From Candidatus Methanoperedens nitratireducens (GTDB taxonomy: Archaea; Halobacteriota; Methanosarcinia; Methanosarcinales; Methanoperedenaceae), in NCBI RefSeq assembly GCF_000685155.1, contig NZ_JMIY01000004.1:225966-263270 (forward strand): a stretch of 37,305 nt of DNA, in the 5' to 3' direction. This document shows, piece after piece, positions 24,209 through 26,623 of the stretch. How positions within the stretch are numbered: position 1 is the stretch's first letter; the number at the start of each line of letters is the position of its first letter. The notes under the pieces are model-generated. The model saw nothing but the letters and a program-made list of their open reading frames with translations, was not told the DNA's origin and did no database searches. The translations under genes and the position numbers were made by a program.

Positions 24209-25675
24209 ATGAAGACGGTACCTACTGGAATAAAAGGTCTGGATTTAGTTCTTAATGGAGGATTCAATTATCCTTCAACTGTTCTTGTAGCCGGCACTGC
24301 AGGGGCAGGAAAAACTACACTGGCTATGCAGTCCCTGTTCAATGCGGCCAGGGAGGGTGAGACGTGTCTTTTTATCTCAGCTATCTCAGAACCTGTTGCC
24401 ATGATGGAGAGCTTTGTATCCAACTACTCCTTTTTTGATCATTCTTTACTCGAAATGAAGAAGATAAGGCTATTTAACATGGAGGAAGAACTGATTCTAT
24501 CAGGGGCACCTGCAGTTATACAATTTATTGAAGAAAAAATACGGATATACAAACCAGGCAGGCTTGTTATCGATCCTGTAACTGTGCTGGCAGAATCAAA
24601 AGAGAATGAATTTAAACAGCGCCTTTTCCTCTTTGACCTCCTCACAAGAATGAAAAGCTGGAACCTGCTCGTTCTTCTCACGGGTGAGTTTACTATGGAA
24701 AGCCTGAGACTGAACCCGCTAAGCTACCTGGTAGACAGTATTCTGCACATCTCCGAGGTTGCAGTAGGGGATAGAAGTGAGCGCTATCTAAATGTAATAA
24801 AGATGCGGGGAAGAACGTATATATCGGGGAGACATTCCTATAGATTAAGCAGCGATGGTGTTGAGGTTTTCCCGAGGTTACTTCCAGAGACTGAGTTCAA
24901 AAGACCTGCATCACTGGATAGAGTAAGCGTGGGTGTGGAAGGTCTGGATAAGATGCTAAAAGGAGGTCTGTTAAGAGATAATGTAATCCTGTTCTCAGGC
25001 GGTCCGGGTACAGGAAAGACAATCTTTGGTCTGAATTTTATATACGAAGGTGCAAGTAAAGGTGAACCCGGTTTAATCATTACGTTTGAAGAATGGCCTC
25101 AGAAACTGATAAGAGATGCAAAGGCTTTTGGATGGGACTTTGAACAACTTGAGAAAAAGGGCATGGTCAAATTCCTGTATTTCTCCCCTGTACTGTTCAG
25201 CGCGAATGAGCATGCCTTGCTCATAAAAGATACCTTAAAGAATTATAATCTTAAAAGAATCTTTTTAGATGGTGTTGAAAATCTGGAAACATCCCTGCCA
25301 GATACAGTAAAAAGAAGGGACTACATTCATTCTCTTGTAAATTATTTCTCTTCACAGGGTATTACAACGCTTATAACCAGTGAGATCCCGGAGCTTTTCG
25401 GTACTATCAGATTAACCCTTGAAGCTCTATCCGGTACTGTTGATGCCATCGTACTGCTTCGGCATGTGGAAGTGGAGGGGCAGATGAGAAAGGCCCTGAG
25501 TGTTTTAAAATCCCGTGGCTCTGATCATGATAAGGAAATAAGGGAGTTCGAGATAACAGATAAAGGAATTGAAGTAAAGGTTGCTCTAAAAGGGTACGAG
25601 AACGTACTGGTCGGTACGGCAAGAAGACCTCCGTCAGATATATTCAGGGATATGTTCGGTGGTAAAAAGCCATGA
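24209..25675 (+). CDS. KaiC-like dual RecA-domain ATPase
   Basis: A product of 488 residues with two RecA/KaiC domains. Walker A1 is GTAGAGKTT at residues 29-37 and Walker A2 is GGPGTGKTI at about 264-272. Walker B-like strands are RLVIDPVTVL and RIFLDGVENLE. The second domain keeps the paired Glu typical of KaiC catalysis (ITFEEWPQKL). The first has FISAISEPVAM with no Glu pair and is probably a weaker ATPase or a regulatory lobe. Archaeal KaiC-like proteins act as signalling or sensory ATPases, not necessarily as clocks. The ribosome binding site is strong (AGAGGTGG). Its stop overlaps the next gene (ATGA), so it belongs with two membrane proteins and a receiver domain. Confidence 0.92.
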   Translation: MKTVPTGIKGLDLVLNGGFNYPSTVLVAGTAGAGKTTLAMQSLFNAAREGETCLFISAISEPVAMMESFVSNYSFFDHSLLEMKKIRLFNMEEELILSGAPAVIQFIEEKIRIYKPGRLVIDPVTVLAESKENEFKQRLFLFDLLTRMKSWNLLVLLTGEFTMESLRLNPLSYLVDSILHISEVAVGDRSERYLNVIKMRGRTYISGRHSYRLSSDGVEVFPRLLPETEFKRPASLDRVSVGVEGLDKMLKGGLLRDNVILFSGGPGTGKTIFGLNFIYEGASKGEPGLIITFEEWPQKLIRDAKAFGWDFEQLEKKGMVKFLYFSPVLFSANEHALLIKDTLKNYNLKRIFLDGVENLETSLPDTVKRRDYIHSLVNYFSSQGITTLITSEIPELFGTIRLTLEALSGTVDAIVLLRHVEVEGQMRKALSVLKSRGSDHDKEIREFEITDKGIEVKVALKGYENVLVGTARRPPSDIFRDMFGGKKP

Positions 25676-25941
25676 ATTATCTTTTAATATTACTGTGGGC
25701 AATATCAATGATCCCATTACTTCTTTTACCTTATAGTATAGCGCTTTTTTATCAGCGCAGTTTTAAAAGAAGAACCTATCCCTCTCTTTTTCTGATCTCT
25801 CTTGTTCTGTATATTGTCTCTTCAATCCAGTATTTATATTCCTCTTTTATTGTTGGAAATTTATTTTTTGCTCTTGGAGGCGTGCTCCTTGGAGGCGCCA
25901 GTTTTAGATTGCATAGAGTTATGACAGGGAGATGGAAATGA
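25672..25941 (+). CDS. Small membrane protein in KaiC-like operon (first)
   Basis: A protein of 89 residues with three hydrophobic segments (YLLILLWAISMIPLLLLPYS, LFLISLVLYIVSSIQYL and FIVGNLFFALGGVLLGG) and a short basic C-terminus. I do not recognise the family. The start overlaps the KaiC-like stop (ATGA, 25672-25675), and its own stop overlaps the next gene (ATGA), so the three are translated together. Such small membrane proteins may anchor or sense for the KaiC-like ATPase (inference). Confidence 0.72.
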   Translation: MNYLLILLWAISMIPLLLLPYSIALFYQRSFKRRTYPSLFLISLVLYIVSSIQYLYSSFIVGNLFFALGGVLLGGASFRLHRVMTGRWK

Positions 25942-26234
25942 TAATCGATTTCAGTTTATTCTTATCAGGCATTTTGGGCTTCCTTGTCCTTTATATAGTA
26001 TTGATACGCCTCAGCGCAAGAATGGGTGAAGGGATGGGGCTTCCAAGATATTATCTGCTGTACTATGTTGCTATTCTGGCTTTGATTCTAACTATACCTG
26101 CTGGCTGGTCGATTCATTATGCTAAAGAGGAAAGTCTGGAGGATGTTTTATTTACCCTGCTCATAATTGGAAATGCTATTGTCATCGCTGCTTCTTTTAA
26201 GTACTGGTGGTGGTTAAAAGATGAGTTCTGGTAA
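25938..26234 (+). CDS. Small membrane protein in KaiC-like operon (second)
   Basis: From the ATG at 25938 the product has 98 residues; the GTG- or ATG-like site at 25932 is less likely because the ATGA overlap (25938-25941) is the local rule. It has three hydrophobic segments (FSLFLSGILGFLVLYIVLI, YLLYYVAILALILTIPAG, VLFTLLIIGNAIVIAASF) and ends with an aromatic-rich KYWWWLKDEFW. I do not recognise the family. Its place between the first membrane protein and a CheY-type receiver suggests a membrane-linked signalling unit. Confidence 0.72.
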   Translation: MIIDFSLFLSGILGFLVLYIVLIRLSARMGEGMGLPRYYLLYYVAILALILTIPAGWSIHYAKEESLEDVLFTLLIIGNAIVIAASFKYWWWLKDEFW

Positions 26235-26257
26235 AAAGAAATAAAGAGGTTGATAAT

Positions 26258-26623
26258 ATGACTAAGAAAATAATGATCGTGGATGATGAGCCAGATACCG
26301 TGGATCTGGTTAGACTCGTACTTGAAACAGAGGGTTTTGAAGTAATAACTGCTTACACCGGCAGTGAGTGCCTGAAGAAACTGGATGAAGAAAAGCCAGA
26401 TGCCGTACTTCTGGATGTAATGATGCCTGAAATGGATGGCTGGGAAGTCTTCAAAAGAATCAGAGAGAAGTACGAGGATTTGCCTGTAGCCATGCTCACG
26501 GTAAGGAACCAGGATATCGATAAAATGCTCGGGCTTCATGTACTTAAAGCAGACGACTATATCACCAAGCCCTTTGGAAGAAAAGATCTGGTGGAAAGGG
26601 TTAGAAAACTGGTTGAGCAATAA
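26258..26623 (+). CDS. CheY-type response regulator receiver
   Basis: A stand-alone receiver domain of 121 residues. The acidic pocket is Asp9-Asp10, the phospho-acceptor is Asp53 (AVLLDVMMPEMDG), and the switch residues are Thr81 and Lys104 (YITKPF). All are present, so it can be phosphorylated. There is no output domain, so it must act by binding a partner. It follows the membrane genes by 23 bp with its own ribosome binding site (AGAGGTTGA). No histidine kinase is visible in the window, so the phosphate source is elsewhere, or acetyl phosphate. Confidence 0.93.
   Translation: MTKKIMIVDDEPDTVDLVRLVLETEGFEVITAYTGSECLKKLDEEKPDAVLLDVMMPEMDGWEVFKRIREKYEDLPVAMLTVRNQDIDKMLGLHVLKADDYITKPFGRKDLVERVRKLVEQ

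Follow-up and report, generated by a model that had tools for sequence, protein, structure and literature searches.

A compact cassette, in which a KaiC-like ATPase is encoded directly ahead of two small membrane proteins and commonly accompanied by two-component signalling genes, is not confined to the organism in which we found it: it recurs in methane-cycling archaea and in some Chloroflexota, and it suggests that a KaiC-based signalling module, so far little known, works at the cell membrane. The cassette lies in the window, a stretch of 37,305 nucleotides from a 3.2 Mb genome (G000) close to Candidatus Methanoperedens. KaiC-family proteins are abundant in archaea, and few have known partners. 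The conserved cassette, which combines a receiver and a kinase with two membrane proteins of its own, offers an archaeal KaiC pathway that can be tested and that belongs to neither the clock nor the archaellum.

The cluster consists of four tightly packed genes on the same strand (Table 1), flanked by genes for an OGG-type DNA glycosylase and for a flavoprotein that we take, from reading its sequence, to be FprA-type. The KaiC-like gene is joined to the first membrane gene (TM1) by an ATGA overlap at 25672-25675, as the initial annotation had it; TM1 and the second membrane gene (TM2) overlap by 10 nt, and 24 nt separate TM2 from the receiver start. The minus-strand ORF beyond the receiver occupies the site that an operon kinase holds in relatives, has no Pfam family above cut-off, and is seen so far only in the window genome and a sister genome (L015).

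Table 1. Features of the cluster, with positions counted within the window and residues within the KaiC-like protein
Feature	Position	Strand	Basis or remark
Two-domain KaiC-like ATPase, 488 aa	24209-25675	+	PF06745 twice, total E 7.5e-90; KaiC fold
Domain 1 Walker A GTAGAGKT, residues 29-36	24293-24316	+	first G and GxGKT core invariant (71/71)
Domain 1 motif CLFISAISEPVAMM, residues 53-66	24365-24406	+	I59-S60 in place of Glu pair; E61 invariant
Domain 1 Walker B, I121-D122-P123	24569-24577	+	IDP invariant (71/71)
Domain 2 Walker A GGPGTGKT, residues 264-271	24998-25021	+	alignment of homologues
Domain 2 catalytic Glu pair FEEW, E294 and E295	25085-25096	+	E294 in 71/71, E295 in 70/71
S408, aligned with KaiC phosphosite S431	25430-25432	+	Ser in 67/71; HMMER alignment to PDB KaiC
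TM1, small three-helix membrane protein, 89 aa	25672-25941	+	TM1 profile: copy in nearly every locus
TM2, small three-helix membrane protein, 100 aa, C-terminal KYWWWLKDE	25932-26234	+	profile; AlphaFold2 pLDDT 92.8
Stand-alone CheY-type receiver, 121 aa	26258-26623	+	PF00072, E 1.4e-30
ORF, 115 aa	26666-27013	-	two hydrophobic segments; separates the four-gene cluster from the flavoprotein gene

The KaiC-like protein and its first ATPase domain

Two stretches of the protein match PF06745 (300.8 bits against a cut-off of 26.6), which places it in the KaiC superfamily. Its domains differ at the catalytic glutamates, with CLFISAISEP in domain 1 against LIITFEEWP in domain 2. The domain 2 pair sits 24 and 25 residues after K270 (E294 and E295); the same spacing in domain 1 falls, ungapped, on I59-S60, with E61 at +26. 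In an AlphaFold2 model of the protein (mean pLDDT 83.4) the preceding strand stops 22 residues after the lysine in both domains (residues 53-57 and 288-292), and because the strand ends at equal distance the gap-free match holds. Across 71 distinct two-domain homologues there is no Glu at positions 59 or 60 and E61 is always present, while the domain 1 Walker A, Walker B Asp and KxRG core (KMRG) are all kept. The initial annotation had described a good Walker A followed by FISAISEP without a Glu pair in domain 1, and a retained FEEW in domain 2, and had named a normal pair on realignment as the outcome that would overturn it; realignment finds no such pair in any homologue, and the domain 2 pair is retained almost without exception (Table 1). 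An ATP site conserved without its usual hydrolysis residue is thus a feature of the family and not a local accident.

Domain 1 is also the better conserved of the two, in 104 of 105 comparisons (from 15 chosen proteins, so that the comparisons are not independent), with mean identities of 54% versus 47%. This higher conservation and the domain tree rule out that domain 1 is a degenerating duplicate of domain 2. The closest company of domain 1 in the tree is a set of stand-alone SEP-type KaiCs that adjoin an SSF-DUF835 protein in family f7, and domain 2 falls, with weak support, near the single-domain KaiCs of the cassette. The two-domain protein thus appears to have arisen by the joining of two kinds of KaiC, not by the simple doubling of one. 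Stand-alone SEP-motif KaiC domains lie beside a large protein at two loci (L185 and L187), the neighbour at L185 being a sodium:solute symporter with two DUF835 domains, of family f7. The first ring, which lacks the Glu pair by nature and is more tightly constrained than the catalytic one, gives a handle on the role of a non-hydrolysing KaiC ring.

Domain 1 might still hydrolyse ATP, with E61 or E160 as the catalytic base, in which case activity would not be asymmetric. Neither acid varies among the homologues, nor do Walker A, the Walker B Asp and KMRG, and a site that only binds ATP need not retain an invariant acid there. We nonetheless consider this unlikely: E61 is predicted to lie two residues beyond the RecA/KaiC catalytic position, directly before the next helix, and we found no solved homologue with the SEP motif as a modelling template.

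The membrane pair and the conservation of gene order

Each of the two membrane proteins contains about three hydrophobic segments, and AlphaFold2 models TM2 as three helices. As the initial annotation had implied in calling them unknown, the window proteins have no Pfam match even at E 1, and other members give only weak, scattered matches, none over a curated cut-off. A Foldseek search with the TM2 model returned no significant match (all E above 0.5), and hence none to a transporter or channel. A first comparison of TM1 with TM2, from 11 sequences, found no relationship; larger profiles are related by hhalign (85%, E 6e-6, in one comparison), which suggests a paralogous pair. The pair carries the signatures IAxFYQKKF, and LSxRLGE and KYWGWL; judged from charge by the positive-inside rule, the conserved stretches (FYQRSFKR and the C-terminus in TM1, LSARMGE and KYWWWLKDE in TM2) would be cytoplasmic.

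The initial annotation had proposed a gene-order search, with homologues always lacking the membrane genes as the refuting result. We searched 238 genomes of the archaeal class with a TM2 profile, finding matches in 62 genomes from four families, and read 80 loci with their surroundings. The membrane genes proved to be the most constant neighbours, and only some homologues lack them: a KaiC gene lies immediately upstream of TM1-TM2 in 72 of the 80 loci, and of the remaining eight, five are truncated where the contig stops, L074 comes from a genome with a KaiC at another site (L172), and two (L100 and L105) have lost it. Junctions are tight: in 72 of 77 loci the KaiC-TM1 gap is no longer than 20 nt, and the same count holds for TM1-TM2. 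Two-component genes, for a histidine kinase, a receiver or both, lie among the next three genes in 62 of 80 loci, with Methanosarcinaceae-type and several f4 loci having neither directly downstream, and a Roadblock/LC7 gene precedes in 36 of 80.

Methanoperedens has two operon types, and the window genome holds one of each. Type II, that of the window, has the order KaiC-TM1-TM2-receiver, and the next gene usually encodes a large dCache-HAMP-GAF-HisKA kinase. Type I runs Roadblock-KaiC-TM1-TM2, often with a phosphonate-binding-type lipoprotein, and then kinase, receiver and DUF2150; the copy in the window genome (contig C3, L061) reads Roadblock-KaiC-TM1-TM2-kinase-receiver. At L081 and similar type I loci the lipoprotein between TM2 and kinase belongs to PF12974, a possible extracellular sensor input. 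Another arrangement (L182) places a two-domain KaiC between an HTH-like protein and a different membrane protein of 115 aa, followed by a histidine kinase and receivers.

Occurrence across families and beyond the class rules out a gene order local to one genus. Three of the four genomes of archaeal family f15 carry a single-domain KaiC with TM1-TM2, followed twice by a receiver (L153 and L155). Among Chloroflexota, we searched 199 genomes of the class to which the Anaerolineae record L017 belongs, and 43 encode TM2. In 17 of 20 loci read there, KaiC lies upstream of TM2; a winged-helix gene usually comes first, and a histidine kinase gene often follows. A search of 492 genomes in two other phyla, run without a positive control, gave no match. 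Bacterial members raise the question of inter-domain transfer and may be easier to work with. Recurrence of overlapping genes in several archaeal families and in a bacterial class makes it very improbable that the genes are mere neighbours lacking a functional link, although individual members have been lost from some loci.

These losses show that the parts are not strictly inseparable. Several Methanosarcinaceae-type genera have KaiC at the syntenic site without TM1/TM2, and at that site g25 archaea (L100 and L105) have the pair without KaiC; TM1-TM2 also stands without KaiC at Anaerolineae-type loci (L210, L218, L219 and L151). In L175-L177, where KaiC lacks the membrane genes, the first Glu of domain 2 is gone (FVE, FNE, FDE) and domain 1 is better kept. 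The pattern fits a link between an active second ring and the membrane pair, from three examples, which are few; Methanoperedens L170-L172, with an intact domain 2 and no adjacent TM genes, speak against a strict rule. The membrane pair might conversely be the real sensor or effector, such as a small channel or a ligand-binding membrane unit, with KaiC only its ATP-dependent regulator. The strong signatures of the pair and its persistence without KaiC, in the g25 archaea and in three Anaerolineae loci, lend this some weight, but KaiC is by far its commonest partner, and proteins of only 89-100 aa without significant structural similarity to a transporter or channel leave about one chance in five for such a role.

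The receiver and its kinase

All phosphorylation residues that the initial annotation attributed to the receiver are present (D9/D10, D53, T81 and K104); they are invariant in 8 orthologues, and the protein is 82-98% identical in 7 orthologues. We found no histidine kinase within or adjoining the window cluster, which consequently does not make up a complete two-component system. The earlier statement that there is no kinase is true of the window genome and an exception among relatives, most of which have a dCache/GAF kinase after the receiver. The type II operon kinase is missing from G000 and its sister G044, a recent, lineage-specific loss. It has not merely been relocated: the best match outside the operon, a kinase at C1:196880, falls in another orthologue group, one that genomes retaining the operon kinase also have. 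With its own kinase lost, the receiver would have to be served by another, for example that of the paralogous C3 operon. The type II and type I receivers of the window genome are 63% identical, so one kinase could serve both and cross-talk may occur.

Proposed mechanism and comparison with known systems

We put at about even odds a reading of the whole as a membrane-docked KaiC-type signalling module. The KaiC-like protein would form a double-ring hexamer whose domain 1 ring binds ATP and hydrolyses little or none, giving a stable platform and docking face, and whose domain 2 ring would hydrolyse ATP and/or autophosphorylate S408. TM1 and TM2 would hold the hexamer in place by conserved faces on their cytoplasmic side, and the phosphorylated receiver, charged in the window genome by a kinase such as that of the C3 operon, would set the state of the KaiC-membrane complex. 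Autophosphorylation of S408 is uncertain, because the T432 equivalent is not conserved (Gly in the window protein, variable among homologues) and the single-domain cassette KaiCs have no Ser at this position. A stand-alone receiver fits the argument that archaeal two-component output works mainly through protein contacts (PMC5847659). The suggestion of an asymmetric, membrane-linked KaiC signalling system, made in the initial annotation, is supported, in that the asymmetry and the membrane and two-component genes are conserved; membrane docking and asymmetric biochemistry are predictions from these sequences.

Cyanobacterial KaiC has the same fold and two RecA-like domains (the best PDB matches to the model are KaiC, TM-score about 0.78). 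Shared with it are the domain 2 Glu pair (E318/E319 corresponding to E294/E295), of which E318 is the base that activates S431/T432 phosphorylation (PMC2777353), the K/R of a KMRGS-type motif and the Ser431 equivalent. The window protein differs in having no domain 1 pair (E77/E78 in KaiC) and no Thr432, and its locus has the membrane pair in place of adjoining KaiA/KaiB. Its scores fall below the thresholds for circadian KaiC (234.6 bits against 546.25 for the TIGR02655 equivalog, 305.4 against 408 for NF006799). A reduced clock, in which the membrane pair replaces KaiA/KaiB, would account for the fold and the conserved S431 equivalent, but clock KaiC depends on CI hydrolysis (PMC5007536), which the window protein should lack, T432 is absent, and the KaiB homologues of the genome are encoded away from the cassette, one of them next to another KaiC, of 570 aa, that has both Glu pairs; we regard a timing device as highly improbable. 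The locus of the 570-aa protein (G000:C5:107753-118903; L002, L188 and L189) contains three KaiB homologues and many histidine kinases, and may represent an independent system of KaiBC type; a fourth KaiB homologue lies on C1.

ArlH (FlaH) is likewise a KaiC-family protein acting at a membrane machine, that of the archaellum. It is single-domain, the window protein scores 71 bits where 215 are needed, and no archaellum genes were seen among the neighbours of the window KaiC. Searches of the literature for KaiC together with Methanoperedens or ANME returned nothing relevant.

A laboratory precedent is the KaiC E77Q/E78Q mutant, with its CI Glu pair removed and CII intact, which has 22% of wild-type ATPase, has lost CI ATPase, keeps CII kinase activity and phosphorylation and occupies a stable hexamer state (PMC5007536). 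Because the window protein resembles this state, we prefer a model in which a hexamer docked at the membrane holds ATP in its first ring, is active in its second and is controlled by a kinase/receiver relay. The mutant is engineered, whereas the window protein lacks the pair by nature, a condition conserved among its homologues together with an invariant E61. We tentatively propose, at somewhat less than even odds, a distinct KaiC class of archaea and Anaerolineae, in which the ring is held at the membrane by a paralogous three-helix pair and steered by kinase and receiver, and which in Methanosarcinales-type archaea became two-ring by gaining an ATP-holding ring, a natural counterpart of E77Q/E78Q.

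KaiC-like signalling hubs in archaea, including inactivated 'iKaiC', were proposed by Makarova, Galperin and Koonin in 2017 (as cited in PMC5847659), and KaiC-receiver fusions have been reported in Methanosarcinaceae (PMC5847659). The cassette shares with these hubs a KaiC-family ATPase linked to two-component parts, and inactivated KaiC domains are a known theme. Set against the 2017 proposal as represented in the citing paper, it stands apart by its one constant composition, by two membrane proteins that no Pfam family covers, by a SEP signature that does not vary and by its occurrence in bacteria. To that extent we regard it as a variant of the hubs and inactivated KaiC domains already proposed, rather than as a new kind of system.
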